Source of the DNA: Bacteroidota bacterium
GTDB lineage: Bacteria; Bacteroidota; Ignavibacteria; Kapaibacteriales; UBA2268
Direction: 5' to 3'
DNA: 64,000 nucleotides
NCBI GenBank assembly: GCA_021780815.1
Contig: JAJXYC010000013.1
Location: 1 to 64,000 of the forward strand
Within the stretch, counting starts at the first letter, position 1. Every line of letters begins with the position of its first letter. The translations under genes were made by a program, and so were the position numbers. Shown here piece by piece: positions 23,218 to 48,737 of the stretch. Under the pieces are notes generated by a model, which had not been told where the DNA came from, made no database searches, and saw nothing but the letters and a program-made list of their open reading frames with translations.

Positions 23218-23231
23218 AAAGACCTCCATTA

Positions 23232-23689: not shown

Positions 23690-25096
23690 TTATTTCATAC
23701 GTTCAACCATAATTTCTAATCTACGATTTTTGGAACGATTTGCTTCACTTGTATTGGGAACAAGTGGCACAAGTGCCCCTCTACCACGTGATATTATACG
23801 ACCACTTGGAACACCTTTGTTCCTTAATTCTTGCATAGCTGCTGTTGCACGCTCAGTTGAAATTTTATTTTGGATATCACGAGTTCCACGGTCATCAGTA
23901 TGACCTTCAACTATTACCCTGTATCCAGGATTTTGCTTTAAGAAATCTGCAACTGCACTGAGGTATTCTTTCATTTCTTTTGATAAAATCGTATTGTTTA
24001 TATTTTTACCAAATTCAAAGTTTATATTTTTATTTGGCATAATAATAATTTGCTTTTTCTGTTCAAGAGGTTTCGTTTCAGGGACTTTTACCTCTAATGA
24101 TGAAATTTCAGAAGTATCTGGCACAATTTTAGATATTTTAGGAATTTCAAAATAACTTAAATCAGCACTTTCGATGGAACTTTCATGAAAGCCAGAGAAA
24201 TAAACTCCATTTTCTCTTGCAACAGAAGCAAGGAATGCAGGCGGTTCAACATAATTTGGGTTAAAAGGTAATGTATCTATTTGTCTTTTATCAGAACCAA
24301 TTTTTACTATTATTCCGATTTGCAATGAAATTCCATTATAATTTGAACCCCAATCTGATAACAAATTAGTTCCACCATTTAATAAGATATAAGTTGAGAA
24401 ACTTGAACGAGCATATTTAGAAATACTTGCTGAAAAGAAATCATAACCAAAACCGATATTTAAACCTCCACGAAAATTGACTGCGGAGTAATCTATTTTT
24501 CTCTTTTCTTGAATTATTTCTGGATTGTGAAAACTTTTTAATTGGTCAGCAAAAGCATTTAGAGGTATTGAAAAATCAAATCCTGAAAACCAATATAATC
24601 CACTTAAAAAGTTTAAGTCAAATCTTACTGCTGGCGAGATTGTTATATAATTATATGTCGTTTGATTTTCGTATGTTGTCTGCAAACTATCATTAGCATT
24701 TAAACTTGTTTTAGATATTTTATAATCGATTAAACTAATTTTTAAATTGATACCCCATTGATTTTCTTTCTTTTTCCATTCACTAAAAATTCCAAGATTA
24801 TAGCCCCAGCCTATTCCTCCTGAGTAATTTAATATATTATTAAATTGTTCCCAGCCGGGGAATATATTTTCAGGTACAATTAATTTCCCAAAATAAAAGT
24901 TAGTTTGTGGAGTTAAACCAAAAAAAGGTCCAAACCACCAGTCGCCCGGCGTTCTGTTTATTAACAAAGTATCTTTTTGACTTGTTATTTCTATATCACG
25001 CAACGTTGCATCAATCAATTGCGATTTTATATCTAATGGTGTTAGGCTGACCATTATAATTAATATTAACAATATGTACTTTTTTTCTTTTAACAT
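23690..25096 (-). CDS. OmpA-domain outer-membrane protein
   Basis: The 468-residue protein has a signal peptide (to about residue 25, ending IKS-Q), an N-terminal beta-rich region of about 35-250 resembling an outer-membrane barrel (WWFGPFFGLTPQTNFYFG, alternating aromatic strands), a linker, and a C-terminal OmpA/Pal peptidoglycan-binding domain from about 355. That domain shows NINFEFGKN, VEGHTDDRGTRDIQNKIS, ERATAAMQELRNKGV, ISRGRG and NRSKNRRLEI, with the Asp and Arg that bind diaminopimelate. It should tie the outer membrane to the cell wall. It is the last gene of a tight run of secreted-protein genes (6 bases after the WD40-like gene), so it may anchor their products. Confidence 0.9.
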   Translation of the reverse strand: MLKEKKYILLILIIMVSLTPLDIKSQLIDATLRDIEITSQKDTLLINRTPGDWWFGPFFGLTPQTNFYFGKLIVPENIFPGWEQFNNILNYSGGIGWGYNLGIFSEWKKKENQWGINLKISLIDYKISKTSLNANDSLQTTYENQTTYNYITISPAVRFDLNFLSGLYWFSGFDFSIPLNAFADQLKSFHNPEIIQEKRKIDYSAVNFRGGLNIGFGYDFFSASISKYARSSFSTYILLNGGTNLLSDWGSNYNGISLQIGIIVKIGSDKRQIDTLPFNPNYVEPPAFLASVARENGVYFSGFHESSIESADLSYFEIPKISKIVPDTSEISSLEVKVPETKPLEQKKQIIIMPNKNINFEFGKNINNTILSKEMKEYLSAVADFLKQNPGYRVIVEGHTDDRGTRDIQNKISTERATAAMQELRNKGVPSGRIISRGRGALVPLVPNTSEANRSKNRRLEIMVERMK

Positions 25097-25102
25097 TAAA
25101 GT

Positions 25103-26998
25103 TTATCTAAATATTTGAAACTTTCTAATTTGTTTACTGTTGCCAGAATTTACAATTAAAAAGTATGTGCCTATGGGGAAATCCTTTATATTGATTGTTT
25201 TCTCGTAATATCCTTTCTCAAAATTTTCGGCAGACATTGTTCTTAATATGTTGCCATTTATATTGCAAAATTGTATATTTAAACTTAAATTATATTCAAT
25301 TTTCATTCCAATTTTTAAATTATTAGAATTATTTTCAATAATTTGCATATTAAAATCATTTTTTTGAACAAACTCAATATTTGGCTTATCTGCTTTTTGG
25401 CATTGATAATCAACTTCAATTATTTTGCTTTGTAAAATTGGATAAAAATTATCTTTTGGTATAATTTCAATATACGCAAATTCAATGGAATCGGTATTTA
25501 TATTGTAATACAAAGTTCTCAATTTTAAAAATGCAAAATCTTCATTTGCAAAATTATACATTTTATTGATAGTAAGAATGATTTTTTTTGTTTGAAAATC
25601 AAATGAATATTTATTTGTGTCAATAATATCAATTAGACTTGCAGGTAATTGAATCTTATTAATGATATTCCAAACACCTAATTTTGAAAGTGTGTCTTTA
25701 TAGTTACTTTGCACTTGTATTTTTAAATCGAATAATTCTCCGGGTGAAAAATTCGTTTTTAGCAAATTAAAAGAAAAATAAACTTTTTGCAAGCAAGTAA
25801 AATCAAGGACTTGGCTTTCTTCATTAAATTGATAATTTTTCCATACACGGAAACCGTTATTTCTACCAGCAGTTAATAAACTATCGCCTGTTTTAGTAAA
25901 ATCACAGGAAAGTAGAGCATAAGGTTCTTTGATTTGAGAAACAAAAACATTATTATTCCATATATTTAATGTGCTATCCAAAGATGCCGCAATTAAGTCA
26001 TTCCTAATTTGATTAAATTTAATTTCACGAATAGAAGATTGGAACGAAGGTTCTAAATTTGTTATATTATTATTTGTTGTATTGAGAAATTTTAATGTGT
26101 TTGATGCTCCGCCAAAAGAGATGTAGTTTTTATTAGATAAATAAGAAATTGCATAAATAGGAGAACTATCTACTTTGTAAACCTTTTCTGAGCTTATAGT
26201 TCCGGTTGAAGTAATAATTTTGCCATTATAAGTGGCAATTGCCAATTCATCTCCTAATGGAGAATAGCGAATTGAATAAGAATTACCATAATCACTATTT
26301 GAGTAAAGTCTTAAACTGATAGGAATTGGCAATAAAAATGTTGCCCGGAAAATCGCCATATTATTATCATTGGAAACTACAGCGAATTGATTATCAGTCG
26401 GGTGAACATCAATTTTACGAATGAAATCGCCAATTGTATAAAAGATACTCCAAGTTTTATTTGTTCTATTCCAAATATAATTTACATTTTGTTCAGCAAA
26501 AATTATTTTATCATTGCTATGAAAAAATTTAGTATCATAAGAGTAACTTAATGTATTCAATTTTAATGAATCTATACATTGTCTTTTCGCAATATCCCAG
26601 ACTTTAATGTAAGAATCGCTGCTTAAAGTTAATATAAATTTTCCATCATCGGAAAAACTTGCTGAACGAATTTCGCCGTTATGTGCAAAAGGTTCGTCCC
26701 AAATTAGTTGTGGAGGAGTGATTGATTCTTTTTTAGCTTTGAATTTCATATTGATTTTAAGTGTAAAAGGAATTTGCCATTTAAATTCATCAATCAAGCT
26801 GTCTGTAATAAAAGACCAAGTTCTTCCAGAATCTAAAGAATAATATAAACTTAATTTGTTAGCAGGAGATGTATTTTTGAAAGTTATAGTTTCACCAATG
26901 AAAAGCGTATCAATTTTATTTTCAATTTGAAATAATTGTCCGTAAGCCATGCACTTCAAAAAAAAAAGGAACAAAACAAAAGCGGCAGCACTTCTCAT
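25103..26998 (-). CDS. WD40-like secreted protein with T9SS sorting domain
   Basis: The 631-residue protein has a signal peptide (MRSAAAFVLFLFFLKCMAYG). An Ig-like N-terminal part (about 22-90) is followed by WD40-type repeats at about 95-395, for example EIRSASFSDDGKFILTLSSD, SYIKVWDIAKRQ, NTLKFLNT and LNIWNN. A beta-rich region to about 540 precedes a C-terminal T9SS type A-like sorting domain: MKIEYNLSLNIQFCNINGNI, then GYYEKTINIKDFPIGTYFLI and a final basic KFQIFR. Such tails are cut off as proteins pass the type IX machinery to the surface. The ATG overlaps the stop of the preceding gene by four bases (ATGA), so translation is coupled. In this operon WD40-like and OmpA domains are on adjacent genes, which recalls the domain set of the T9SS protein PorE, though they are not fused. 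Confidence 0.85.
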   Translation of the reverse strand: MRSAAAFVLFLFFLKCMAYGQLFQIENKIDTLFIGETITFKNTSPANKLSLYYSLDSGRTWSFITDSLIDEFKWQIPFTLKINMKFKAKKESITPPQLIWDEPFAHNGEIRSASFSDDGKFILTLSSDSYIKVWDIAKRQCIDSLKLNTLSYSYDTKFFHSNDKIIFAEQNVNYIWNRTNKTWSIFYTIGDFIRKIDVHPTDNQFAVVSNDNNMAIFRATFLLPIPISLRLYSNSDYGNSYSIRYSPLGDELAIATYNGKIITSTGTISSEKVYKVDSSPIYAISYLSNKNYISFGGASNTLKFLNTTNNNITNLEPSFQSSIREIKFNQIRNDLIAASLDSTLNIWNNNVFVSQIKEPYALLSCDFTKTGDSLLTAGRNNGFRVWKNYQFNEESQVLDFTCLQKVYFSFNLLKTNFSPGELFDLKIQVQSNYKDTLSKLGVWNIINKIQLPASLIDIIDTNKYSFDFQTKKIILTINKMYNFANEDFAFLKLRTLYYNINTDSIEFAYIEIIPKDNFYPILQSKIIEVDYQCQKADKPNIEFVQKNDFNMQIIENNSNNLKIGMKIEYNLSLNIQFCNINGNILRTMSAENFEKGYYEKTINIKDFPIGTYFLIVNSGNSKQIRKFQIFR

Positions 26999-28323
26999 TT
27001 TCTGTTCCTTGTTAAAAAGAATGGTACCATAGAACGGGAAATTTCAACAGAGTTATCATCAATTGGATAAGCGATTAAAATAAATTGATAGTAACCATCT
27101 GCAACCCAAGGAGGTGGGTTATAAGTTGAAGTATAAATGCCTTTATCAAGTTTTAGATTATTTAACACTTCATTGTTTTTTTCTTGTACCGAAAGTTCTT
27201 CAACTTTTTTACCTACTTCATCAATAATATATCCTGTCATATAACAATTGTCATCAACTTTAAATTGTATTGTTGGACGTTTTTCGCCGGATGGTTCAAT
27301 TATTTTAGCTTCCACAATTACTGCATTTGGAATTGGGAGGCAAGCTTCTGCCAGCAAAGAATCTGCCCCTAAATTTCCTTGTATATCATATATATTTGCA
27401 TACAAGCGGTAACAATATTGAGCACCACGAAATTGGACACTATCGGGCAAATAACCATAGAATTGGTCTATTAAACTATTTCCTTTGGATAACATTTCTT
27501 GATTATAATACGGGGAACTGGTTTCCCAAGAATAAATTGTGTCGTATTGTAAAGTATTTGTACTTAATGTAGAACTTGGACGAAAGGCTTTGGTTATTTT
27601 AAAACCTTTTATTCCATATTCTTTTTCCATTGTCCAATCTATTGTTAATTTTTTATCAGTTGTATATATAACGTGAAAATTTTTCAGAATATTTTGAACA
27701 ATTGGGTTATTATCTACATAAAATGTTGCTTGCTTTGTTGTGCCGTCATTTAATTCAACATTGTCATCAGTGTAGTACCAAACAATAGAATTATCAATAA
27801 TAGAATCTTGACTTCTTTTATAAGCAATTGCTTGATAGTAATTTTCAGGTTTTACCCATTCTATATTTGATGGAATAAATCGTCCATCTGTTGCCGTAAT
27901 TACATAATGACCGAGTAAAATATCTTTCTGAAATGGGATTGTATCTGATTCTTGATATGTTGTAGGTCCAAGAATAGCTAAACTTAATGTATCTTTTAAA
28001 ACAGTCTCTCTTGAAATATACCCATTTGCAGGTATGTTATTTCCTGTAACTATGCCTGGGTGCAAATCAGACTTTGTATTAAGTATGCTCAAACTACTGC
28101 TATCAAATTGGAAGATATTATTTGTAAAAGTAATGTGAAAAGTGCAGTTTGCAAAATAATACCAATCATCGGAAGTTCTATTCAATACAACATCAAATTC
28201 CAAAATATTATTAGCAGATTTAAATAAATTGACTATTTTCACATCAGCTGTATTTTCAATTTGTGCAAACATTTGCAAATTTGTAATAAGCAAAAAAAGG
28301 AATATGTATAAAAATGCTTTCAA
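26995..28323 (-). CDS. Secreted protein of unknown function, 442 aa
   Basis: It has a signal peptide (MKAFLYIFLFLLITNLQMFAQ). The first half is beta-rich and resembles a cohesin-like or anchor-type sandwich (ILEFDVVLNRTSDDWYYFAN, CTFHITFTNNIFQF), with fibronectin-like strands in the second half (LTIDWTMEKEYGIKGFKITK). It ends GYYQFILIAYPIDDNSVEIS and shortly after in a basic RNRK. I do not recognise a family. The start is directly adjacent to the stop of the dockerin-like gene, and its own stop overlaps the WD40-like gene, so it is a core member of the operon. A cohesin-like fold next to a dockerin-like C-terminus on the neighbouring protein is suggestive, but the fold is only inferred. Confidence 0.75.
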   Translation of the reverse strand: MKAFLYIFLFLLITNLQMFAQIENTADVKIVNLFKSANNILEFDVVLNRTSDDWYYFANCTFHITFTNNIFQFDSSSLSILNTKSDLHPGIVTGNNIPANGYISRETVLKDTLSLAILGPTTYQESDTIPFQKDILLGHYVITATDGRFIPSNIEWVKPENYYQAIAYKRSQDSIIDNSIVWYYTDDNVELNDGTTKQATFYVDNNPIVQNILKNFHVIYTTDKKLTIDWTMEKEYGIKGFKITKAFRPSSTLSTNTLQYDTIYSWETSSPYYNQEMLSKGNSLIDQFYGYLPDSVQFRGAQYCYRLYANIYDIQGNLGADSLLAEACLPIPNAVIVEAKIIEPSGEKRPTIQFKVDDNCYMTGYIIDEVGKKVEELSVQEKNNEVLNNLKLDKGIYTSTYNPPPWVADGYYQFILIAYPIDDNSVEISRSMVPFFLTRNRK

Positions 28324-30420
28324 CTATTGTTTATTCCTATTATTCCAACTAATGTTAAAGTCACGTGTAGTAATTATACCGTCCATATCGTAATCATAGA
28401 GTAAATAACCTTTTTGAGATATCACATTCCAAACTTGTAAATAATCTTTCAATACAGTAAATGGATTAGCATAGTTCAACATTTGGGTTTCGCTTGAAGG
28501 GTCATTAATATAATATCCTGCTTTCATTGCAAAAATTCTTTGATTGTTTGAAACATCAACTAATTTTAATGCCGCAGTACCACCTAAAACAAAATCAGGT
28601 TGAGTAAAATCATATACTTCTGAGTTATTTGCGGGTCGTAATAATATAGGATTTAATGTCTTGATTGAAGCGTGATTTCTGTGAATTATAACAATATCGA
28701 AAGCAGAATCTTGATTTAATGGGTCAAAATCGTTCTTTGTTATTCTAATATTTGGATTTCCGAATATATCAACAATTTGACCATTATATTTTACTAAAAG
28801 CAATTTGTCAAATTTTACATTTGGGTTTGTTAAATTTCTAAATTCAAGGACAATCCAATCAACCACAGAATCAGGGACAGATTTAATTTGATTAAAATTA
28901 ACATTATTAATTAATGAAAATGGGAATTCATTTGGATTTATTTTTGTTAATAAATTCCCTTGCATACCGTTCCATAAATCTGTTCTCATTAATCCGAGAG
29001 AATTTGCTTTATAAGATCCTTCTAATAAAACTTTTGCCTGAACAAAAATAGAAAGTGACGTGGATAATCCAATTGCGAAAGAACCACTTGTATTTAAGTT
29101 CGCCACATCTGAATATGCCCAATTGTATGGATTATCCATTAAAGGAGTATTCGAGGTTAAATCTTCATAATTGCCATTTTCCCAGTGTTGCAAAATTAAA
29201 TCTGCAAAAGAACTTGCTAATGAATATGTTTCATCATAACTTTTATTAGGAGCATTTCGCCAACCATAGCCAAATTTAGCATTAAAACCTCCAAATACTT
29301 CATTCCCATTTGCATCGAACATATTTAAATCAATTGAACGCATTATTTTTGAATTTGATAAATCGTATTTTGGATAAGTGGTTGGTCTTATATCTAATAA
29401 AATATCTGTTACTCCATTGCTTGAAGCTAAATCGTTGAAATAAAAATAAGTATAGTTATTATGGAATAATACTTTTTCTCCTATATTAAAATTGTTCCGT
29501 CTGAAGCGACCAGCAATTTCCGATAGCAAACTATCACGGAATTCAGGATTATTCTTGCTTGCCAATGTTAATGTATCTTGATATGCGAATATTCTGCCGC
29601 CAACAATTAATGAATCATTGACTTGTACATTTTTTGTTAATATCAAACTATCAGTATTTAAAACTTGTAATCTACGTAAAGTTGAAGGATTTGAAGGTAT
29701 TTCTCCCGTAGTTTGTATTGAACCAACTCCACGATAAGTAACATCTACATTGTTCTCAAATCTTGGCTCAAATGAAAGTGAAGCTCCTACAAACCTTTCA
29801 ATTTCAGTTGAATCTTTCATTGTAAAATTTTCAGTAGATGAGTTGTTAAAATTTCCACGAGAAAGAGTAAGTTTTGAAGTTATTTCAAATCCCCCTGATT
29901 TAACATTGACACCTAATGGATTATCAATATTAAGTCGGGAGAATTTGCCATCAGCAATAATTTCTTGTGATTTTGTCTCATTTCGCATTATTAAATCTTT
30001 ATTGCCAAGGTATTCTGATTTATTGGTATTTACTACTGCATCTTCTGCAATTACGTCGTTTGGATTTAATCCAATGTAAGAAGAAGCGAAAGATGCACTA
30101 CTATCGAGAACAAGTGAATCACGTATAATAAGATGTTTGATAGTGCCGAAAACATCTTTATCATCGAGTATTACTTTCTTCCCGAGATTTTTAACTACAA
30201 GTTGCCCGTAAACTATATTTGGAACAGTATAATAGTTATTTGATACATTTTGCAATAATTCTACACGACCGTCAATTGTATCTTGTTTTATTACAACCTG
30301 TCCACTTTTGACTTTGATTGTTCCAAGATTATCAATTTTTCCGGTGCTATTAAGGGATTGGGACATCACCGAAGTGATGCCCAAAACCAAAATAACTATA
30401 TGTAAAATTATCTTTCTCAT
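28324..30420 (-). CDS. Beta-helical secreted protein with dockerin-like C-terminal end
   Basis: The 698-residue protein has a signal peptide (MRKIILHIVILVLGITSVMS-Q). Its N-terminal half is made of short repeating strands (GKIDNLGTIKVKSGQVVIKQ, GQLVVKNLGKKVILDD, KLTLSRGNFNNSSTENF) typical of beta-helix or adhesin folds. The C-terminus reads YDYDMDGIITTRDFNISWNN, a single Ca2+-binding dockerin/EF-hand-like loop (D-x-D-x-D-G...D) found at the ends of surface proteins in this bacterial group. There is no T9SS tail that I can recognise. The gene follows a 15-bp inverted repeat and is directly joined to the next gene with no gap. Its repeats resemble those of the giant protein further upstream. 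Confidence 0.78.
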   Translation of the reverse strand: MRKIILHIVILVLGITSVMSQSLNSTGKIDNLGTIKVKSGQVVIKQDTIDGRVELLQNVSNNYYTVPNIVYGQLVVKNLGKKVILDDKDVFGTIKHLIIRDSLVLDSSASFASSYIGLNPNDVIAEDAVVNTNKSEYLGNKDLIMRNETKSQEIIADGKFSRLNIDNPLGVNVKSGGFEITSKLTLSRGNFNNSSTENFTMKDSTEIERFVGASLSFEPRFENNVDVTYRGVGSIQTTGEIPSNPSTLRRLQVLNTDSLILTKNVQVNDSLIVGGRIFAYQDTLTLASKNNPEFRDSLLSEIAGRFRRNNFNIGEKVLFHNNYTYFYFNDLASSNGVTDILLDIRPTTYPKYDLSNSKIMRSIDLNMFDANGNEVFGGFNAKFGYGWRNAPNKSYDETYSLASSFADLILQHWENGNYEDLTSNTPLMDNPYNWAYSDVANLNTSGSFAIGLSTSLSIFVQAKVLLEGSYKANSLGLMRTDLWNGMQGNLLTKINPNEFPFSLINNVNFNQIKSVPDSVVDWIVLEFRNLTNPNVKFDKLLLVKYNGQIVDIFGNPNIRITKNDFDPLNQDSAFDIVIIHRNHASIKTLNPILLRPANNSEVYDFTQPDFVLGGTAALKLVDVSNNQRIFAMKAGYYINDPSSETQMLNYANPFTVLKDYLQVWNVISQKGYLLYDYDMDGIITTRDFNISWNNRNKQ

Positions 30421-30433
30421 ATTTGTTTTAAAG

Positions 30434-30469
30434 TTACCTTCCTTATTTTATTGTAAATAAGGAAGGTAA
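30434..30469 (-). terminator. Perfect 15-bp inverted repeat between two surface genes
   Basis: TTACCTTCCTTATTT (30434-30448) pairs completely with AAATAAGGAAGGTAA (30455-30469) around a 6-base loop. It lies 11 bases after the 736-aa gene and 14 bases before the next start. There is no long U tract on the minus strand, so it could be a partial terminator, an mRNA-end stabiliser or an attenuator. Confidence 0.6.
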
Positions 30470-30479
30470 AAGTTTTTAA

Positions 30480-38900: not shown

Positions 38901-41900
38901 AATATTTCCGCTATTTGCTGTAAGAGCGATACCATTGGCAGCACCAACAATTAGTTTTCCATCTTTGAATAAATTGAAAGCATTACCTCGCAATGTTCTT
39001 GTTCCTAAATCGAGAGTTCCTGTTGCAAATACTTTTGTTGAAGGACCTGCAAGTGTATAAACATTAATATCTGAAATATAATTATTATGTCCAATATCTG
39101 AATTTAACTTAACGGTTTTGCCGTTACCAATAAATACATTATCATATTGTCTTACAGGGAAAGGATAAACATTTGGGTCTGTGTCATTTAATGCTTCGTT
39201 GACGGTGCTGTTATATGAAACAGTTGACCAGGTTGTTGGGTCAGTCCAATCTCCATCTTTAATGGAATAAAAATTATAAAATTTAATAGAATTTCTGTTT
39301 CCTGCAACATAATCAGCTAGAAGAGTGTCGCCATTTGCGTAAGTTTCAGTATTACCAAATGTTTGTGTAGGAGTCAATCCTATAACTGTGATGTAAGAAG
39401 TTGGGACATTCGGACTTGTACAAGTTGAACCATTATAATTAAAATTAGGTGTTGGTTGAGGAGGTATTCTTGTATCACTACAGACATTTTCAGTTCCACT
39501 ATTATCGTAAGTGCTGTTACGAGCCATCGTTTGCCACCATTGTAACGAATCACCCCCTCTATAATAGGTTAAATCAGCACAACCAACACAATCAAGGAGT
39601 GTTGTATATTGTGGATGCGGAAATCTTACTGTTACATTATAATTTCTATTTCCTCTTATAAATGTAGAATTGTTTGGTTTAATCAACCTCCAATAAACTG
39701 TAATTACTCTATTAGGATTAACAGGGTATAAGCTTTGTGGTGTTTTATAAAGTTTTGGGTGGAAACCATCAATTGGCACTGCGGCAAGGTAACCTGCAAC
39801 ACTTCCTGTTCCAGTGGCAAAGTCGAGTTCAAGAGGTGAATAATAAAATTCATCTCCTACTTCAAAAACAGTATTAGGGGCATCTCCTGAGGCAATATTT
39901 TTCCTGACTTGCCCATTTACCCAGCCTCCGCCTTGCGTCAATGTTGTTTGTCTTGCACCTGTAACAGTAGCAGATGGGTCAAAAATCACATACAAAGGTG
40001 TAATATTAGCTGAACGAGTAAAAGCATCTATTTTTCCATAATTAGTTGCGGTATAGGTAAGGTTATGGGTAATATTTACCCAAGTTAAAGTATCTAAAAA
40101 GCAATTACCTGTATTTGCCGATTTATTTATTGTCAAATTATAAAATGTTATACCATCGTTATAGTTTTCAACAGATAAAGTATCTCCACCATTGTATCCT
40201 GCAATATTAAATGTTCGTCCATTTGGAATAAAATTAGTTCCTGCTGCTTTTCTTAAATTTCCATATAAATAAAAATCATTGTTTCCTAAACTAAAAGAGC
40301 CATTTTTTATATAAACGCTGTCTCGTATATGCAAGTTATTAGTTGTATTAACTGTTAAAGTATTGCTTGATTTATCAATAATCAAAACATTAACCGTATC
40401 TGGTTGTGAAGGTAATCCATCACCAGTATTTTGAGCATTCGAGCTATTATAGATGAAAGTTCCTAAATTATGTGTATTGTAATTATAAGAGCGAGTTGCA
40501 GTTTGAACATTACCTAAAGCGGCAGAAGAAGTAATACCATCAGGACTGCCAATTTTTATAGACGAGTATTTATATAAACGAAATTCGCCCGTACCTGTAA
40601 TTGTATTATTTTGAAGGTCTAACACACCACTCGAATCAACAGCAACAATTCCATTAACTGTGCCACTATTGTTGATAACAGGATTAATATTCATAGTAAT
40701 TTGATGGCTTGCACCAATAAATGCTCGATAGTTTGTTGTAGTTTGCCCTGGATAAATATTAGCCGATGCACCGTTATATTGCATTAAAGACCAATTTGCT
40801 GGGTTATCCCAATTTCCATCTGCACGTGTATAAAAAGTTAAAGCAGTAGGCTCACCTATGATAACCGTCCCTAATTCCCTTAACTTGTTATAAGTAATGG
40901 AATCATTTTGTCTATTTGATATATATGGAGTTGTGCCATAGTATTGGGGGGGAATCCAATTCACGTTGTTATAAAGTAAAACATCGAGTAATTCAGTATT
41001 TGCGCCATTCCGTAAATCTCCGCTATAAATAAAGTGTGGAACTACATTATATGTTCTTTGGTCTCCAATTGCAAAATTACTATTCAAAGGTTTAGATATT
41101 ATCCATTGCCTTGCAATATGTTTGTCAGTGCTTAAATCACTACCTGATGGTAATATTGAAGTTGGAATATTATCAGACCAGCTTATTGGTGAAGTTGTTG
41201 TTGTTACGGTATCCGAAATTATATCAACTAAACCATCTAGACCGCCAGTTCCATTAAAATAAAGTGTGATTGGAGTATATGAATTTTCGTAACCTACTTC
41301 ATATTGTAAAGTTGTTGTTCCTGTTGGGATATTCTTTCTTAATTTCGAGTTAATATAACCACCGCCGGACCGTGTAATTGTTCCATTGACTTGTATAAAC
41401 CTATCTCGAGCATTAATTCTTCCATAAGTTAAATCTAAATTATTATTTACTATTATTCCATTATTGTTTGTTGTTCCAACCGAATTTGCATTTAGATTGC
41501 CTCCATTTCTAAGTTCCAAATTATAAAAAGTTTCATTACCATTTGCTACACTAATACTTTGCAATGTATTATTTTCAAAAACTATTGTTGAATTGGTCTG
41601 AGTAAAAATTCCACCTAAATTTATCCAATTTCCATATAAATATATATTTGAATTAGCAACATTGAAATTAGAACCAGCAGCAAGGCTTAAATTGCCATTT
41701 ACTTTTAAATTATCATTAATGGAAACATTCCCAGAGCCTCGTAACAGTAAGTTTTCAAAAGAATTATCTGTTGTGTCTCTTGAAGTAATTGTTGTTGTAA
41801 CTGATGTTGTTGGAGAATACATTATTACAGAGGTATTTGATTTTGGGCTGAACTTTGCATTAGTAGTATTTAGCCAATTACCTTGAACTTCTATATTATT

Positions 41901-44900
41901 AGTATCTTGTGCAAAAGTGGAATTATTTTGTAAAGTTAAATTATTTGTAATTACAAACGTAGATTTATTTGCACTAATAATTTGTTTTGTTCCTATACTG
42001 TCAATTATTAAATTATAATAGGATAAATTTACCAAGCTATCTGCTGGCGAAGCAGGTTGAAATGGAATATTTTGTGTCCCGCCATTTTGTGCAAAATGTA
42101 TAGTTGAACCTGCTGTATAAAATCTATAAGTATTATTAACAAAATTTAGATTTGAAATATCAAAGTTATTGATAATTTTTATTTCGCCGGCGCTTTCAAA
42201 ATTAATATTGCCAGAGCGTGTTCCTTTAACTACTAAACTATTATATTGCATAACACCAGGGATAGAGCCAGAACTTGGGATAACGACATTTCCAGTTCCA
42301 TCGAAAGTAATTTGACCGACAGTAAAAGTAGGGGACAGGTAGTTAATAGGGAATGAACTACGGATAATCATTTCTCCACCTCGCATTATCATTGTGCGGT
42401 TTGCGGAGTATCCATTAATAGAATTGGTAGATAAATCAAGAGTTCCACTATTTATTACCAAAGAATCTCTTATTGCCGAATTTTTACTTAATGCAATAGT
42501 TGAGCCTGCTGTTTTTTCAACAATAACAGAACCTGCAATATCTGGTAAAGCATCGCCTGAAACTTGACTTTGACCTTCCCAAAAGCCATATATTCCATAA
42601 CTTGAAAGTAGTCTTACATCAGTTCTAATTGCGCCGGTCATATTTGGAGTAATAGATATTCCATCGGTATGGGCAATATATAATCGCGCATTGTTTTCTA
42701 ATCGGAACGTATCACCAGTGCAATAATTATTACCACTAAATTTTAAAATACCAGAAGAACGACCTTCTGTACCTGTTTCAACTGCAATTAGATTTGCATC
42801 GGCAATTGCACTCGAAATAGTTACTGTGTGATTTTGGATTTTTACTCTATCGGAACGCTTATTTGGGATAGTATTAGAAACAGGACCATCATAATAAATT
42901 TTTGACCAAGTATTTGGGTTATTGTAATCTCCGTCAGCACGAGCATAATAAGTAGCTTGTCCTGCGTCTTGTTCTCCTAATGTCCAATCTCCATCTAAAA
43001 TACTTGTTTGTTGAGCATACCAATATTTTTGATTTATATCTATATAATTGTTGAAACCCGGTTGAATTCGCCAATATGCTCCCGCTGTATTCCAATTTGG
43101 CGAATATAAAAGCACTTTGTAACTACCTTCACTTCCTTGAACTTCTGCTTCATTGTAATATCCAAATATTTCTGCTCCTTTTGTATTTACTGTTAAATCT
43201 TGTGTTTTTACAACCCAATATTTTGTTAGTGATATATTTGGTGTTTCTACCGCTGGATGTTCTAAAGGAACTGGTTTTATTTTTATATAAGGATTAGAAC
43301 CATAACTAACACCACTCGGCAATAATCTTATCTCAGCTGGTGTATAAACATTAGGTGTTGTGATTGGGAAATGTAACTCAAGTGGGAAAGAATCTGTTTT
43401 ATCTATATATTTAATTAAATACGCTCCATTATCGGTAGTTGTGCTGGTAGAATTTAATATACATTTGCTGGCTGAAAATGTGTTGAATGCAAAAGAGAAA
43501 CCATCATCTGAAAAAACTTTTGCAGTAGATCCAAGTGTTAAATCATTCCCATTTAAATCAAATTGCGTATCTGAAATTAACCTTAACGAACCTGCAATAC
43601 CTGTAGGCACATTAAGAATAACTTTTCCATTTGATTTATTTACTGACAAAATATTAAAGGTTGTTGTTTGTGTCCCTGAAATATTTTGGTCTAATGTTCC
43701 ATTAAATAATACTTTCCCAATACCGGCATTAAACCCATCAATATTAAAGTAGTTATTAGTAAAATCTTGCCCAACTGTTAAAGTAAAATTATTTGATGTG
43801 AATAGATTTGTGCCAGTTCCGTTTAAAGTTATATTATTTAAAACTGTGAAGTCATTTCTTAAAGTTACATTTGCGTTATTTTGTGCATTTTGAGTAAAAT
43901 TAAATATACTTGCTTTGGAGTCAAGTTCAAAGATTTGATTAGCTACTTCGGAATTAATTATTAAAGTGCCTCCTGTAACATCATTGTTCAATGAATAAAT
44001 CCGAAAATCTGGAAATGAATTGTTGGTATTTGAGCGATGTAATTCAATTGTTCCATCACGCATTGTAAAAGATGAATTAGAATTTGGTATATCAAACATA
44101 GCATTATTTGTAGATGCTTGACTACCAACGCCAATTTTGACATTTCCATTATTTAATGAGAAATTTATTACTCTATTAGTATCTGGGCAAGTAATTGCAG
44201 TATAAATATTTAAAATGCCATTGTTCACTATTAAATTTGATGCACCATTTGAAATTAAGTTATCATAAATTAAATTACTTTCATTAGATGAACCAACGTT
44301 AAAAACTCCTTGATTGATTTGTAAATTGCCTCTCAAAATTGCATTTCCTGCTACTGATTGACCATTAACAATAGCATTTGGGTTATCTAATATAAATTTT
44401 GAATTTTGTGGAATTATATAATCATTGCTTAAGGTTTTAAAAAATGTATTAGAAATGTTGTAATTATTTGTAACCTTGAAAGTACCTTTTGTTAAAGTTA
44501 AAAAATTATCGGGTGCAGTAAAAATTTTATCAAAATTCACATAATTGCTTGTATCCGGTTTGTTTACAATAACTTCATTAAAATTAAAAGAGCCAGAGCC
44601 ATTTAAATTTACACTTGTTGCACCTGAAAAAGTTGTATTAATTTTGCCACCAGTCGTGGCAAAATTCAAAGTTCCATTATTTGTGAAGAGTCCGCTAAAT
44701 AACAAAGAATGGGTTTGTGAGCCAGTTGTAGAAGCATCAAATAAGCAACCATTAGATATTAACAAATTCCCATTTAACGTAATTGTTAGGGACGAATTAT
44801 TTAAAAATCTTAAATATCCATTTTGAATATCTAAATCAGAATTTATCAATAAGGATTGGTCAATAAAGACAATTATAGAATTTATATCTTTATTTATAAT

Positions 44901-45233
44901 TAATTTATAGAAATTTGTTGTTCCAGTTCCTGATATTGTGCTATTTAAATCACCAAAGAAGATAATATTTGCTTTATTAGATTGCAGCAAACCATTATTA
45001 AGCAAATCTCCATAAAGAAAGAGTTGGCTACTTGAATCTTGACTCAGAGTGCCGTTGTTGCTAATTTGTAGGTTGCCATTAATTTTTATTACAGAATTTG
45101 GAGAAAGTGAAAAAGTTGCATTTGGAGATATATAAATATCTATTGCATAGGCATTATTAAAAACAAACAGAAATCCGAACAAGATGAAAGCGCTCTTTGT
45201 GAAAATCTTTATATTTTGTGTAACAAACCTCAT
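32940..45233 (-). CDS. Giant modular surface protein, 4097 aa
   Basis: The protein has an N-terminal signal region with a hydrophobic core ending NNAYA and then beta-helix-like repeats (IKINGNLQISNNGTLSQDSS). It is built from six divergent large modules. Each has an element G-x-W-x-(D/N)-P-x-x-W-S at about residues 768, 1473, 1996, 2619, 3321 and 3791. Five (G/A)LP-containing elements follow (SGDALPD, TGDGLPS, TGDGLPL, TGTALPN, YGSGLPN), together with Y-x-P strands (YTPAEIRL, YTPITLYF, YSPLELDF, YHPVHLYD, YRPVTLSV, YTPMDLTL) and closing GDWTLGE-like turns. A GEVED-type domain sits at about 2150-2295 (RSWIDYNYNGSFTDSGEQIA). It ends IINSGILEIGE with no T9SS type A tail that I recognise. A cell-surface fibre or adhesin is the likely role. 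Confidence 0.85.
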   Translation of the reverse strand: MRFVTQNIKIFTKSAFILFGFLFVFNNAYAIDIYISPNATFSLSPNSVIKINGNLQISNNGTLSQDSSSQLFLYGDLLNNGLLQSNKANIIFFGDLNSTISGTGTTNFYKLIINKDINSIIVFIDQSLLINSDLDIQNGYLRFLNNSSLTITLNGNLLISNGCLFDASTTGSQTHSLLFSGLFTNNGTLNFATTGGKINTTFSGATSVNLNGSGSFNFNEVIVNKPDTSNYVNFDKIFTAPDNFLTLTKGTFKVTNNYNISNTFFKTLSNDYIIPQNSKFILDNPNAIVNGQSVAGNAILRGNLQINQGVFNVGSSNESNLIYDNLISNGASNLIVNNGILNIYTAITCPDTNRVINFSLNNGNVKIGVGSQASTNNAMFDIPNSNSSFTMRDGTIELHRSNTNNSFPDFRIYSLNNDVTGGTLIINSEVANQIFELDSKASIFNFTQNAQNNANVTLRNDFTVLNNITLNGTGTNLFTSNNFTLTVGQDFTNNYFNIDGFNAGIGKVLFNGTLDQNISGTQTTTFNILSVNKSNGKVILNVPTGIAGSLRLISDTQFDLNGNDLTLGSTAKVFSDDGFSFAFNTFSASKCILNSTSTTTDNGAYLIKYIDKTDSFPLELHFPITTPNVYTPAEIRLLPSGVSYGSNPYIKIKPVPLEHPAVETPNISLTKYWVVKTQDLTVNTKGAEIFGYYNEAEVQGSEGSYKVLLYSPNWNTAGAYWRIQPGFNNYIDINQKYWYAQQTSILDGDWTLGEQDAGQATYYARADGDYNNPNTWSKIYYDGPVSNTIPNKRSDRVKIQNHTVTISSAIADANLIAVETGTEGRSSGILKFSGNNYCTGDTFRLENNARLYIAHTDGISITPNMTGAIRTDVRLLSSYGIYGFWEGQSQVSGDALPDIAGSVIVEKTAGSTIALSKNSAIRDSLVINSGTLDLSTNSINGYSANRTMIMRGGEMIIRSSFPINYLSPTFTVGQITFDGTGNVVIPSSGSIPGVMQYNSLVVKGTRSGNINFESAGEIKIINNFDISNLNFVNNTYRFYTAGSTIHFAQNGGTQNIPFQPASPADSLVNLSYYNLIIDSIGTKQIISANKSTFVITNNLTLQNNSTFAQDTNNIEVQGNWLNTTNAKFSPKSNTSVIMYSPTTSVTTTITSRDTTDNSFENLLLRGSGNVSINDNLKVNGNLSLAAGSNFNVANSNIYLYGNWINLGGIFTQTNSTIVFENNTLQSISVANGNETFYNLELRNGGNLNANSVGTTNNNGIIVNNNLDLTYGRINARDRFIQVNGTITRSGGGYINSKLRKNIPTGTTTLQYEVGYENSYTPITLYFNGTGGLDGLVDIISDTVTTTTSPISWSDNIPTSILPSGSDLSTDKHIARQWIISKPLNSNFAIGDQRTYNVVPHFIYSGDLRNGANTELLDVLLYNNVNWIPPQYYGTTPYISNRQNDSITYNKLRELGTVIIGEPTALTFYTRADGNWDNPANWSLMQYNGASANIYPGQTTTNYRAFIGASHQITMNINPVINNSGTVNGIVAVDSSGVLDLQNNTITGTGEFRLYKYSSIKIGSPDGITSSAALGNVQTATRSYNYNTHNLGTFIYNSSNAQNTGDGLPSQPDTVNVLIIDKSSNTLTVNTTNNLHIRDSVYIKNGSFSLGNNDFYLYGNLRKAAGTNFIPNGRTFNIAGYNGGDTLSVENYNDGITFYNLTINKSANTGNCFLDTLTWVNITHNLTYTATNYGKIDAFTRSANITPLYVIFDPSATVTGARQTTLTQGGGWVNGQVRKNIASGDAPNTVFEVGDEFYYSPLELDFATGTGSVAGYLAAVPIDGFHPKLYKTPQSLYPVNPNRVITVYWRLIKPNNSTFIRGNRNYNVTVRFPHPQYTTLLDCVGCADLTYYRGGDSLQWWQTMARNSTYDNSGTENVCSDTRIPPQPTPNFNYNGSTCTSPNVPTSYITVIGLTPTQTFGNTETYANGDTLLADYVAGNRNSIKFYNFYSIKDGDWTDPTTWSTVSYNSTVNEALNDTDPNVYPFPVRQYDNVFIGNGKTVKLNSDIGHNNYISDINVYTLAGPSTKVFATGTLDLGTRTLRGNAFNLFKDGKLIVGAANGIALTANSGNIILGYNQQRQYSDTANFEYAAEGNNTSTYSYDVIDRDASTHYIEQVIIKNASDNSTVMQSFTGNSRTFLNYGHNYIWNKTADLVAGQSYYIQINPSNVIANRKFRSWIDYNYNGSFTDSGEQIADVNSNDTVNVQTATFTVPAGTPPGTTHLRIGMRSNTYSFTPTSSGIGEFEEYTVNIINPTATITQVTGDGLPLKLSSLIMHGRRANATTELQKSIEVVDSVKIISGILKASNGTNNYNIKLNGCFINDTLNGFNPANGTVEFYGEFQDTVRGNQPITFYNLNVNKYNSDTLITFDNNINVNNTFNFNTNNNIIVKDNRSVTFGQNSVLNGTFSKYRMFVLSGTANAGTLTKIFPITTGLANPKIFTYPIGLDTIYHPVHLYDTASTYTSSPQMTLSLRNGKHPLRYTDSTLNMYWVLSSSNFVNIDTLTFAYSPVNVTGDTNKYIPGLLNANTSSWYIDLGPLPWARTSPIIVHNTIYFNGDWTAGQPRTFSKGLIFYSKKSGYWDDYSCWSTNSVLKHLGPDASYPPGALFIADTVNIDGHTITFRGDSIYIDSLRIGGTNPIPANGQLVFANSPQNKKLSMRELFLDNDNGSIITEANGTGVDTLEITGNITNNALTNGINFTDTGGNHTLEIRFPSAGNSYIAGNGLWSNIQNVRINKPNGLSDTLIISSSTFSQGSMLSQPKFYFQSGILEGFSGQTTLIGGDAFPVTLLPKSGIYVKNGNFQANSTLTSSSNSTINLDGGNIYIGNAPNENYYYQTGSNFKIISGNFIVAGAFLRQNPSATLDLTINNSSSIVVAKYGSTGPDPSFDLRSVGSAITMIGGRIIVANGNNNTESDLSINAANGGGITGGSIQMGDSVLTTSTNNFKISGSTPIYNLHLVSNGSSNIFQTSISSLNYTIKNQVLVDTNQSFNINGNILTLQGDLLNHGQIIGTPSSSSSQSWELILNGTGNQYLKNYNSSVNKLEFYSLSIDKQTGNTILGDATATNSNLKVNDHFEFAPNNTSIIDATTYSQKVIIGPNSSSIGTYQFTRNGLGHIWGTLSYYIPTGNQTITYSVGADTLASYRPVTLSVVGTSNTAGYIEVTPHNVVHPDIANSGLLVATSLPRYWTVTQPTNQAFGLGVDGSYQITTTFINPGDIPTGATVSLYEHRLYSPAYPATGTWSTPNFVSNSSTTVTTKGNTKWGDFIVGEPNTVTFYSINNGNWQNTNSWSLSGYTINDPPTRIPNQAGDIVRIGNGKTITLQDDGTYPVVRNVIVEKYNNLPGYFQINGQLNYFRGLVFQLDDNCSLGIQNVDGIRPVSDGNVGPIQTNARQYGISRYIFNSSFGNQITGTALPNYVRTIIVDNSSSSTNKKVFLSNYPGAPNINILDSLYIRQGTFNSGNRNLRVLGNFVLDSIQNEGKFEALSSKVIIDSNLTHNIVLKNRTGLNLFDLDLTNGLTNVYREGSNVTPNTHLYVSDILNFAGQAIIALNDSVNLSITNSNINAITNYASDRYIRTSETSGMLIRNLSSTGLPLNYTYPIGSYESADHYTPMDLTLTSVTTTGKLGARVSPGDKGGFPGGHSQISSSPNAEYLKRFWKIDSVTATFQGQAKFYYLNSDVYGYETDYTRLGRWRPSGEVTPGTWTQYLNPTIDTVQNYFLTSSSFNSTEFSGDWTLGNPFAFRRIFFSRQSGLWDDPNSWTYNSNHSGPIFGAGLWPNNTLDSVVIGGGDGTNQPHEISLDVNANVQGTALGTSPTDRGILNTSIHTLVGLYFTMADYSTLKVSSPQGISSLGSNTGSILTDSARIFNPNGNYEYNGQSNQIYGSGLPNIVNDLVINNSGSANNNIILANNNILVQNNLSILQGTLNLQTYSANSSTGNGTFTLNPNARLIVGGNNNLQNSINDYRLYNIDTASYIEFNGITGNSQIINILPNNLTLGLGNVDLTNDGTKIANSSLIIRGNLHNYSPSILQINQIDALQVKKNVINESQIINSGILEIGE

Positions 45234-45281
45234 AAGCGTTTTTGATTATTAAATAATATTATTTTACAAAATATTATAAAC

Positions 45282-47897
45282 TTATAATGCTCCTAGTAGA
45301 TACCACTGATTACCGTCAGATATAATCATAAAAATAGAACGATTTGATGTGCTAAGTATTAGGTACTTTTTGGTTTCAACCATATCTACACCATTTCCCA
45401 GATAGATTGTTACAGTTGAACTACTTACGGTTCTGATGATATAGCTCCTCCATTTAACGGTACTTGCAAGAGGTAAAAAAAGTGTGTCGCTTTTGCTAAA
45501 ATTGGCGAATATAATATAATATGGGTCTGATGCTTTAATTGTTGTTTTACCGGTCAAAGTAACAATACCATAACCTACTGAACCATTAATTTGAAATGTT
45601 GAAAGTGGCGATGTTGTTCCAACTCCTATCTTCCCGTCTGCTTTTAATGTCATTGCTGTTGAATTGTTTGTTTTGAACGACATATCAGTGCTATCAGTTG
45701 TTCCGATAAAATTATTGTTTGAATCTAAACCACTATTTCCTGATGTGGACCATAAAGAATTAGCATGATTTTGGGTTATTAAAGTGTCCCAATTATTATT
45801 AGCATATACTTTTAATTTGTTAGTTCTACCATCAAAATAAACTGCACCATTTGTAGAATTTACATTAGGGGTTGTATTTTGAGGGTCAAAATAAATTACT
45901 TTTGGGTCGATAGTTCCCGAAACTATTAAATCTTGTTCAATCCATACATCACCATTAATTCTAACTAATACAGAATCATTAGGCGAAGTTGTAGTTCCAA
46001 CTAATAGTTTTCCATCATTTTGCAATCTCATTCTTTCGGTAGCATCAGTAGAAAATTTTAAATTCAAATTTTCATTTTGGTTCAATATAGCATTGCCTGA
46101 AGAATCTATACCCACATCAAAACCATCAGAAACACTTTGACCTGTTGTAGTTCCGGCGGTAAATTTATGATAAGTTGATTGACCTGTTCCTCCGTCTTGA
46201 TGCAATAAGTCTGTTGGACTTGAAAGACCAATGCCGATGTTGCCTGTTCCTAAAATTCTCATTCTTTCAGTATTATTAGTGCTTATAACTAATGGCTGGT
46301 TGTTTATGGAACCTAAAATTTCAGTTCCATTTAAATTATTTCCTGTCAATGCCCAACCTGTCGAACCACCAGGTGATTGTGGCTCCCATTGACTTAAAGT
46401 ATTATTCCAAGTTAGAATTTGTCCATTCGTGGGAGCTGTATTACTTACACTGTTTCCTTGCAACTTTGCAACACTGGGGTTTGGATAAGTGCCTGATAAA
46501 TCCCCTCCGGCAGCTGTGCCTGTCCCTATTTTATCGTTAAAAGTAGTCCAATCTATTGAACTTAAATAACCATCTGTCGTTCCATTTGCTTGTGGTATTG
46601 AAATTGTATTGCCAGTTCTTGAAAGAGGTGTATTAAAAGTTAATGTATTTTCTTTATTATTAAAACTTGTCCAATCCGTTGAACTTAATAATCCCGTTGT
46701 TGTTCCATTTGCTGTTGCTATATCAATACTTGTTCCAGTTCCAATTACAGCGTTAGTTCCACCCGCAATTGTAACTGCACTTGTGTTACTCGATAAATTA
46801 CCTTTTGTTAATATTGGTTCATACACGCCATTATGATTATGGTCGCTCCTCGATGCTGTGTTTGCTGTCCCATTTCCACCAAAAAGTACACTTATTGTTT
46901 GACCAGTAATATCAATTCCATTTCCTGCTGTGTATGTTGCTGTATTATCTGTTGATGGTGTCCAATTTGTGCCATTCCATTTCAATACTTCTCCATTATT
47001 TGGAACAGTATTTGAAACTGCATACCCTTGCAATTTTGCAACACTGGGGTTTGGATAAGTGCCTGATAAATCCCCTCCGGCAGCTGTGCCTGTCCCTATT
47101 TTATCGTTAAAAGTAGTCCAATCTATTGAACTTAAATAACCATCTGTCGTTCCATTTGCTTGTGGTATTGAAATTGTATTGCCAGTTCTTGAAAGAGGTG
47201 TATTAAAAGTTAATGTATTTTCTTTATTATTAAAACTTGTCCAATCTGTTGAACTTAATAATCCCGTTGTTGTTCCATTTGCTGTTGCTATATCAATACT
47301 TGTTCCAGTTCCAATTACAGCGTTAGTTCCACCCGCAATTGTAATACCATTTGTTGTAGTGGACAAATTACCAATTGAAGAGGTTCCTGTGCCACCTTTA
47401 ACAACAGGCAAAATTCCATTTGTTTCATTTGTTGCTAAATCAACTGCATCGGTTGTCGAACCAGTTCCGACAAATTTATTTGCCTGAATCGAACCAGTTC
47501 CAGATGGAAATAAGGAAGATCCAGAAGCAACCTCCATTGTTGCAGAATTGTTTATGCCTGAACTAATTTTATCAAAAGGAAAAGTTGAAGTTGAGGCAAT
47601 CAAAGCAATCCAATTTGGAGAAGCAGGTGTCCCCGAGTTATAATAAAAAAGATTATTATCTGTGCAATAAACAATAAGCCCATTTGCAGGGTTTGCAATA
47701 CTATTTCTTTCACTTATAGTCATTCTTGGAATTAACAATCCTCTTTTGGTTGCCATTGATGATACATCAAGATGCAAAATAGCCGAATTATCGGGAGTAG
47801 TTGTTCCTATCCCAACATTTTCAGTCTGTCCATAAGATGAACTTGTCAGGTATACGATAAATCCAATAATTAAAAAGGAGTTAAATAGTCTTTTCAT
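45282..47897 (-). CDS. GIGTT-type fibre-like secreted protein with internal duplication
   Basis: The 871-residue protein has a signal peptide (to about residue 23, YG-Q) followed by the segment ENVGIGTTTPDNSAILHLD and RGLLIPRMTISERNSIANP. This opening is common in Bacteroidota surface proteins and resembles phage tail-fibre shafts. The middle has shaft-like repeats (STDWTSFNNKENTLTFNTPL, GTGTAAGGDLSGTYPNPSVA), present twice with almost identical DNA. Further GIG-type turns follow (GNIGIGLSSPTDLLHQDGG, GKIGVGTTSPLSTFQING). No S74 chaperone domain is evident at the end, which is a beta-rich head. It is the first structural gene of the surface block and lies 48 bases before the 4097-aa gene. A trimeric fibre or adhesin is plausible. 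Confidence 0.82.
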   Translation of the reverse strand: MKRLFNSFLIIGFIVYLTSSSYGQTENVGIGTTTPDNSAILHLDVSSMATKRGLLIPRMTISERNSIANPANGLIVYCTDNNLFYYNSGTPASPNWIALIASTSTFPFDKISSGINNSATMEVASGSSLFPSGTGSIQANKFVGTGSTTDAVDLATNETNGILPVVKGGTGTSSIGNLSTTTNGITIAGGTNAVIGTGTSIDIATANGTTTGLLSSTDWTSFNNKENTLTFNTPLSRTGNTISIPQANGTTDGYLSSIDWTTFNDKIGTGTAAGGDLSGTYPNPSVAKLQGYAVSNTVPNNGEVLKWNGTNWTPSTDNTATYTAGNGIDITGQTISVLFGGNGTANTASRSDHNHNGVYEPILTKGNLSSNTSAVTIAGGTNAVIGTGTSIDIATANGTTTGLLSSTDWTSFNNKENTLTFNTPLSRTGNTISIPQANGTTDGYLSSIDWTTFNDKIGTGTAAGGDLSGTYPNPSVAKLQGNSVSNTAPTNGQILTWNNTLSQWEPQSPGGSTGWALTGNNLNGTEILGSINNQPLVISTNNTERMRILGTGNIGIGLSSPTDLLHQDGGTGQSTYHKFTAGTTTGQSVSDGFDVGIDSSGNAILNQNENLNLKFSTDATERMRLQNDGKLLVGTTTSPNDSVLVRINGDVWIEQDLIVSGTIDPKVIYFDPQNTTPNVNSTNGAVYFDGRTNKLKVYANNNWDTLITQNHANSLWSTSGNSGLDSNNNFIGTTDSTDMSFKTNNSTAMTLKADGKIGVGTTSPLSTFQINGSVGYGIVTLTGKTTIKASDPYYIIFANFSKSDTLFLPLASTVKWRSYIIRTVSSSTVTIYLGNGVDMVETKKYLILSTSNRSIFMIISDGNQWYLLGAL
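46456..46774. repeat. 319-bp direct repeat, copy A
   Basis: By eye this segment matches 47026-47344, offset 570 bases (190 codons), with only two differences found (46464 and 46677). It encodes part of the shaft repeat of the 871-aa protein. The near identity, including silent positions, indicates recent duplication or gene conversion. Confidence 0.9.
47026..47344. repeat. 319-bp direct repeat, copy B
   Basis: Partner of the copy at 46456-46774. Both copies are in the same frame of the 871-aa gene, so unequal crossing-over would add or remove exactly 190 residues without breaking the frame. Confidence 0.9.
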
Positions 47898-48071
47898 AAT
47901 AAATGTACATTTTTAAACTGCAAATTAATAAAAAATTAAAAAAAATAATTAATTATTGATATTTTTTTATAAATATACTATAATATAAATTAACGAATTA
48001 AAAAAACATTGTTTTACGTAATAATACGTAGTTTTATATTACATCAACACAATAAAGTCATCATACTTTGG

Positions 48072-48737
48072 TTAATCTACTATATTTTTTGAATTAATTA
48101 TAGCAAAACGGACTAATTGTGCTGCATTTTTTAATCCGAATTTTTTAATTAAATTATGTCTATGAGTTTCAACAGTTCTAATACTTAAATTTAATTTTTC
48201 GCTTATTTCCTGGTTAGTATTACCATCGGCTATTAATTTTAATATTTCTTGTTCTCGTTTTGTGATAGAGACATTCAAATCATTAGTTTCGTCATAAGTC
48301 ATTTTTCTATCTCGTATCAGTTTTAAAATAGATTTGCTGAAAACTCTGTCGCCTTTGATAACATTAAAGACTGCTTCTTGTAAAATTTTAGCGGAAACAC
48401 CTTTGGTCAAATAACCATCAGCACCAGCCAATAAAGCTTTTTCAATATGTTGAAAATCTTCGAAAGCAGTGAGCATAATAAATGCCGTGTTTGGGCTTTC
48501 TTTTTTAGCAATTGGAATAGCTTCAATTCCTGACATTTTTGGCATAAAAATATCAACAAAAGCAATATCAGGATTAAATTTTTTGCAAGAATTAATTAGT
48601 TCCAATCCATTAGTTGCTTCATCAACAATTTGTATCAATTTGGAAAATGATAAAAGTTTTCTTATACCAACTCTTACAACTTCGTGGTCATCGGCAATTA
48701 CGATTTTAATTGGATTTTCATCATTGTAAAGTAACAT
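48072..48737 (-). CDS. NarL/LuxR-family response regulator
   Basis: The 221-residue protein has a receiver domain (residues 9-125: acidic pair DD16-17, phospho-acceptor Asp62 in AFVDIFMPKMSG, Lys near GYLTKG) and a C-terminal LuxR-type HTH (about 155-215: ITKREQEILKLIADG, NQEISEKLNLSIRTVETHRH). Phosphorylation should allow dimeric DNA binding. No kinase gene is adjacent; the closest is about 25 kb away at the other end of the surface block. It lies 174 bases upstream of the surface-protein run on the same strand, so it is a candidate regulator of that run. That link is positional. Confidence 0.94.
   Translation of the reverse strand: MLLYNDENPIKIVIADDHEVVRVGIRKLLSFSKLIQIVDEATNGLELINSCKKFNPDIAFVDIFMPKMSGIEAIPIAKKESPNTAFIMLTAFEDFQHIEKALLAGADGYLTKGVSAKILQEAVFNVIKGDRVFSKSILKLIRDRKMTYDETNDLNVSITKREQEILKLIADGNTNQEISEKLNLSIRTVETHRHNLIKKFGLKNAAQLVRFAIINSKNIVD

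Follow-up and report, generated by a model that had tools for sequence, protein, structure and literature searches.

The 64,000-nt window analysed here (contig JAJXYC010000013.1, assembly GCA_021780815.1, order Kapaibacteriales), to which all positions refer, carries on its minus strand a locus that, on a balance leaning slightly in favour of this reading, encodes a lineage-specific polar surface fibre made of head-to-tail beta-solenoid proteins and docked by a dockerin-cohesin contact. To hypothesize, the tip of the fibre would be a giant protein of 4097 aa, or a mini-protein in its place, which has a tail but no p736-type head and could occupy the far end only, while the shaft would be the 736-aa protein p736, which has both head and tail and would be made in excess and used in many copies, each tail binding the next head. 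The base would be the 698-aa p698, in which a p736-type head is combined with an X-module/dockerin-like end instead of a tail, so that the chain would end at the cell. The dockerin of p698 would plug into a cohesin-like domain of the 442-aa p442, the putative socket, itself surface-displayed through a sorting domain of the type IX secretion system (T9SS), and a barrel/OmpA protein would tie this base to the outer membrane and the wall.

The genes of the locus form a real conserved unit. The order p736, p698, p442, (WD40), OmpA, response regulator and CHASE histidine kinase recurs in about 40 loci from about ten families, with NadE, NarL, the fibre gene and a giant or mini gene often at its head, which goes far beyond chance; the relatives are mostly metagenome-assembled genomes, and many of their contigs end near the giant. 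An earlier note on this DNA had treated the gene set as a unit and had named scattering of the genes in relatives as what would overturn that view; the genes remain linked throughout the order, and the core of the set is conserved. Two of its members do not belong to the universal core: the giant and the WD40 protein are accessory, and the WD40 gene, considered as a core part, was rejected as it is present only in the window's own family. The boundaries also had to be widened, since the conserved unit extends to NadE upstream and to a single-domain response regulator (RR125) and a CHASE-PAS-HisKA protein downstream. Full p442 is single-copy and found at one place per genome in 52 of 60 relatives, and its three domains occur together in 12 of 16 genomes of the order versus none of 103 other genomes in a class-wide sample, where matches are mostly confined to the FN3 and sorting-domain part. 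p736 is present as a single copy in its own genome. The C-terminal module of p698 occurs widely among Bacteroidota, but full p698 is confined to this group among the retrieved loci. In the window, the gaps between p736, p698, p442, WD40 and OmpA are 59, 0, -4 and 6 bases, and those on the 5' side are larger (giant/p736 249, fibre/giant 48, NarL/fibre 174 bases). It should be mentioned that the locus also occurs in public records named Chloroherpeton thalassium and Desulfobulbaceae (L061, L063), which are probably misnamed bins.

The polarity of the proposed fibre is read from the ends of the proteins. The slot upstream of p736 is taken either by a giant (3474-4840 aa, 11 complete cases) or by a mini-protein (125-168 aa), and the two are homologous at their heads (hhalign 95.9%, E 6e-9) and at their tails (96%, E 4e-9). 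Some genomes have neither kind next to p736, and a few have both. p736 ends in 19 residues that match the tail of the giant (73.5%, E 3e-5) and that of the mini-proteins (89%, E 2e-6), and p698 is paralogous to p736 along 406 columns, N-terminus included (profile-profile 99.4%, E 5.7e-22). No homology was found between the heads of the giant and p736 in profile comparison (5.9%), and because of this the giant is placed at the tip only. Of the ends common to p736, the giant and mini-proteins thus have the tail only and p698 the head only, while p736 itself has head and tail; this is the pattern expected for a polar chain, and the gene order mirrors it. There are also tail-bearing proteins of about 1,060-1,120 aa, and minis reach 184 aa. 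Versions of about 1,060 aa were seen away from p736 in families f4 and f7 (L163, L164, L173, L169), and in f4 they lie beside a fibre gene. The tail as a general sorting signal was considered and rejected, as a profile of the giant tail finds usually one protein per genome in relatives, and its sole significant match in the window's own genome is the giant of the locus.

A second line of evidence is the gap between p736 and p698, where a strong hairpin recurs across families. Over the 23 loci in which this gap spans 30-300 bases, the median folding z is -4.5 (74% below -3), against 0.0 (1% below -3) for 86 other gaps of those loci; a z below -3 is reached by 15% of other same-strand gaps and 35% of convergent gaps. 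The p736-p698 gap differs from the other locus gaps with p 5e-12 and from other same-strand gaps with p 2e-8 (Mann-Whitney), although the hairpin loci are related to one another and these values overstate their independence. Since the stem sequences are unrelated between families, it is the structure and not the sequence that is maintained at this gap. The hairpin 3' of p736 would either protect and stabilise the upstream message or terminate part of transcription and attenuate the downstream genes; either would uncouple p736 from p698 and could give many shafts per base. A more ordinary explanation is that the locus is a cluster of T9SS adhesins without a defined assembly, whose proteins act singly and whose hairpin is an intrinsic terminator between units that are neighbours for regulatory reasons. 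Some hairpins indeed have T-rich tails, comparably strong folds are found in about a third of convergent gaps, and the genome has about 100 other proteins with T9SS tails. We regard this as rather improbable, as p736, p698, p442 and OmpA are maintained order-wide with mostly short gaps or overlaps, the dockerin-like and cohesin-like partners are adjacent, and the other gaps of the locus have no hairpins.

Codon usage bears on the same gene. On average, C-ending codons make up a larger part of the two-fold codons in p736 than in any other locus gene tested, and its bias exceeds that of p698 in 23 of 36 genomes, p442 in 26 of 36, OmpA in 22 of 28 and the giant in 11 of 12. Hairpin and codon bias both point to p736 as the putatively most abundant product of the locus; compared by eye, the presence of the hairpin and the codon-bias difference between p736 and p698 have no clear relation. 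An apparently abundant p736 would equally suit a surface coat or matrix, in which p736 is an S-layer- or capsule-like solenoid resting on p698/p442, the giant and the fibre protein are separate adhesins, and there is no end-to-end fibre. Such a coat would also agree with the giant and the fibre gene being a separable pair, found at another locus in some genomes, and with several genomes that have neither giant nor mini beside p736. We nevertheless consider the coat unlikely: the giant and p736 have a common tail motif, the giant-tail profile is nearly unique to this protein in each genome, and the common heads of p698 and p736 suggest serial contact of the parts. The fibre remains our preferred reading, and the extracellular filament that the earlier note had proposed is now backed by the common head/tail architecture and by the p736-p698 hairpin, although the assembly itself is still something we infer.

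For the base and the socket, the evidence comes from structure models and from homologues. Pfam, NCBIfam and PHROGs gave no strong match for p736, p698, p442 or the fibre protein, and searching the PDB by sequence with profiles of p442 and p698 gave nothing meaningful. The AlphaFold2 (AF2) model of p698 (predicted local distance difference test, pLDDT, 82.7) has a beta-helix, which matches phage tailspikes (Z 12.2) and also autotransporters, followed by an immunoglobulin (Ig)-like region. Its C-terminus is a dockerin-like EF-hand module, in agreement with the dockerin-like end noticed earlier: calcium loop 2 is retained by almost all of the 31 homologues, and Pfam Dockerin_1 is matched in 3 of the 31 (best E 0.0016). 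The AF2 model of p442 (pLDDT 90.9) has three domains. Residues 24-207 adopt a cohesin fold in the model, as the earlier suggestion of a cohesin-like partner would have it, with cohesin 6kgc_A (CaCohA2) at Z 10.3, root-mean-square deviation 3.2 and 133 aligned residues; many further cohesins follow at Z 9-10 and dominate the matches there. Residues 210-437 match FN3 tandems in structure comparison. At the sequence level a cohesin in p442 is not supported by Pfam and profile comparisons: Cohesin PF00963 has no match in any of 36 p442 homologues at E 0.1, and p442 is not among the PF00963 matches of its own genome and has no profile match to those proteins either. The claim drawn from the model is one of cohesin fold and not of membership in the Cohesin family.

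Five frames in the same genome (L174-L178; C6, C18, C4, C4, C16) combine a weak Pfam cohesin match with a T9SS tail, and two further frames match dockerin. Outside the order, one genome (L179, G134:C42) encodes an Ig-repeat protein that has an N-terminal domain of the p442 type and a T9SS-like tail; the cohesin-like family is thus not strictly confined to the locus.

The genome carries the T9SS translocon SprA, and p442 and the WD40 protein are putative T9SS cargo by their C-terminal, type A sorting-like domains. Por_Secre_tail is matched in 14 of 36 p442 homologues, and, while the window's own p442 has no such Pfam match, its C-terminal domain aligns with the tails of WD40 proteins (hhalign 96.1%, E 3e-9); the WD40 protein of the locus matches Por_Secre_tail at 1.3e-5, slightly under the Pfam cut-off. 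No T9SS sorting domain was found at E 0.01 in the giant, p736, p698 or the fibre protein, nor in the p736 and p698 families. It may be that p442 or another partner takes these tail-less proteins across the outer membrane. The proposed OmpA-type anchor has a peptidoglycan-binding domain and an outer-membrane barrel; among 31 homologues, OmpA PF00691 is matched in 28 and the barrel PF13568 (OMP_b-brl_2) in 12, and three homologues from family f2 have the barrel only. Because family f2 has a barrel-only gene in place of the OmpA gene, the barrel is the constant part.

Several observations weigh against the fibre and its docking. The tail that p736 has in common with the giant is a short one of 19 aligned columns, some relatives lack both giant and mini beside p736, and p736 and p698 are fused in some relatives. 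Families in which the p736 and p698 genes overlap have no hairpin, and the codon-bias edge of p736 over p698 is modest, as seen in the counts above. The likeness of p698 (residues 457-677) to the X-dockerin chains of A. cellulolyticus ScaA is weak (Z 5.2), its calcium loop 1 is intact in about half of the 31 homologues and degenerate or lost in this genus, and the likeness of p442 to cohesins stays at the level of fold. The giant, p736 and p698 have no T9SS signal that would account for their export. In one family (f9; L051 2667-5033, L058 5723-8104, L089), p736 and p698 apparently make one solenoid protein with a dockerin-like end.

The features of the locus are collected in Table 1. From 50.7 to 19.8 kb, the minus-strand order is NadE, NarL, fibre protein, giant, p736, p698, p442, WD40, OmpA, RR125, CHASE-PAS-HisKA and a response regulator-histidine kinase hybrid (RR-HK). 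The open reading frames were confirmed on the minus strand, and coordinates, gaps and domain types agree with those listed before; the GerE/Response_reg, WD40, weak Por_Secre_tail and OmpA assignments were likewise recovered by domain search.

Table 1. Features of the locus in the 64,000-nt window (positions in nucleotides).
Feature	Position	Strand	Basis or remark
NAD+ synthetase NadE	48787..50748	-	Pfam CN_hydrolase + NAD_synthase
NarL/LuxR-type response regulator	48072..48737	-	Response_reg 1.4e-23 + GerE 8e-20
871-aa fibre protein, tail-fibre-like repeats GTAAGGDLSGTYPNPSVAKLQG	45282..47897	-	from sequence
4097-aa giant: signal peptide, head, solenoid-like modules, W-domains, GEVED, conserved tail	32940..45233	-	
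Giant head	44904..45233	-	homologous to mini-protein heads, hhalign 95.9%, E 6e-9
GEVED domain of giant (one)	38367..38594	-	Pfam 1.7e-12
Giant tail, 62 aa, ...VINxxxIxNxGxIEIG	32943..33128	-	common to mini-proteins; last 19 aa also in p736
p736 (736 aa)	30480..32690	-	head as in p698, tail as in giant
p736 tail motif ANLTNAGTIVNHSIIEIGQ	30483..30539	-	matches giant tail and mini tail
Intergenic hairpin p736/p698, 15-bp perfect	30434..30469	-	z -7.1
p698 (698 aa): beta-helix + Ig-like + X-module/dockerin-like C-terminus	28324..30420	-	AF2 model
Dockerin-type calcium loop DYDMDGIITTRD in p698	28360..28395	-	loop 2 in nearly all of 31 homologues
p442 (442 aa): cohesin-like + FN3 + T9SS-type sorting domain	26995..28323	-	AF2 model
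Cohesin-fold domain of p442, residues 24-207	27703..28254	-	Z 10.3 to CaCohA2
T9SS sorting-like domain of p442, residues 335-442	26998..27321	-	Por_Secre_tail in homologues; hhalign to WD40 tails
WD40-like beta-propeller, 631 aa, weak T9SS tail	25103..26998	-	WD40 + weak Por_Secre_tail matches
Outer-membrane beta-barrel + OmpA peptidoglycan-binding domain, 468 aa	23690..25096	-	OmpA 1.6e-14
RR125, single-domain response regulator	23232..23609	-	domain match; conserved neighbour
CHASE-PAS-HisKA sensor	21016..23229	-	domain matches; conserved neighbour
Response regulator-histidine kinase hybrid (RR-HK)	19807..20913	-	retained in nearest relatives only

At the upstream end, NadE adjoins NarL in several relatives (G034, G024, G009, G022, G008, G027, G053, G046, L081) and is probably a conserved upstream neighbour and not a functional part of the fibre system. 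In relatives NarL adjoins the fibre gene or sits between the giant and p736, and the fibre-like gene adjoins a giant or a mini. The fibre protein of the window has an internal duplication of about 190 aa, with DNA repeats about 570 bases apart (e.g., at 46509 and 47079). An Rfam scan found a tRNA alone, and promoter scans of the locus were at about background level. NarL and the response regulator/CHASE pair may regulate the locus. Another possibility, which we hold to be very improbable, is that these neighbours make the locus a sensory surface complex, in which the fibre, WD40 and OmpA proteins would display or detect a ligand, with the CHASE kinase and the response regulators as its readers. 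CHASE is an extracellular sensor domain, and RR125 and the CHASE histidine kinase lie downstream in many relatives; however, several families keep the structural genes while the response regulator or kinase is missing or replaced, the domain search gave no HATPase match in the CHASE-PAS-HisKA protein, and simple co-regulation explains the neighbourhood equally well. The CHASE-PAS-HisKA protein may be a degenerate kinase that works with the downstream RR-HK hybrid.

The literature search found no described Kapabacteria surface system, no cohesin/dockerin plus T9SS fibre and no partner-exported T9SS proteins, nor any account of this gene set, with subscription papers mostly outside the search; the earlier note likewise knew of no named system with it. 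Some known systems are nonetheless comparable. Chaperone-usher pili consist of a tip, a major shaft subunit in excess, a base and an anchor, and the locus resembles them by analogy only, in the logic of assembly and expression; it has no pilin fold, the domain search found no usher or periplasmic chaperone domain in any locus gene, and joining is proposed to occur via beta-solenoid ends. The cluster of the gliding adhesin SprB has a giant repetitive secreted protein, a T9SS genome and an outer-membrane barrel partner gene nearby, all of which the locus has as well, whereas the giant here has no T9SS tail and the SprB cluster has neither solenoids with shared heads and tails nor a cohesin-like socket. 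The locus also differs from the type B SprB/PorP-SprF arrangement, as its barrel matches OMP_b-brl_2 only, with no match to PorP/SprF, and no sorting domain, of type B or otherwise, was matched in its giant. The best-known role of cohesin-dockerin pairs is to keep enzymes on cellulosomes. The X-module/dockerin-like end of p698 beside the cohesin fold and display domain of p442 recalls cellulosome attachment by the ScaA X-dockerin and ScaB cohesin, although in the locus there is no scaffoldin with repeated cohesins, the dockerin sits on a beta-helix protein, the cohesin is undetected by sequence and display would be by T9SS. It is not a cellulosome: there is one cohesin-like domain, and none of the secreted locus proteins had a catalytic domain in the domain search. 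A likeness in display is seen in Candidatus Stygibacter (Cloacimonadota), for which a cohesin scaffoldin with a T9SS C-terminal domain and dockerin-bearing partners were inferred from genomes (PMC8542988). In both cases a protein with a cohesin or cohesin-like domain would reach the surface by way of a type IX sorting domain, but Stygibacter has hydrolases on a 3,755-aa multi-cohesin scaffold, in contrast to the single cohesin-like domain and the structural solenoid proteins in one conserved operon described here.

Taken further, the locus could stand for a new class of filament in Kapaibacteriales, a polar solenoid polymer with a cohesin-dockerin base, a hairpin-set subunit ratio and a tip protein whose length ranges between about 125 and about 4,800 residues while its two ends stay the same; we propose this class tentatively and give it somewhat less than an even chance. 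If the docking holds, a cohesin-dockerin pair seems to have been adopted for mounting a structural fibre. A hairpin kept by structure and not by sequence behind one gene points to selection on subunit ratio. A further question is how solenoid proteins of this size, lacking a sorting signal, get through the outer membrane; a signal-bearing partner may carry them. For the uncultured Kapaibacteriales, in which our literature search found no described surface appendage, the locus provides a testable parts list (tip, shaft, base, socket and anchor) for an order-wide system.

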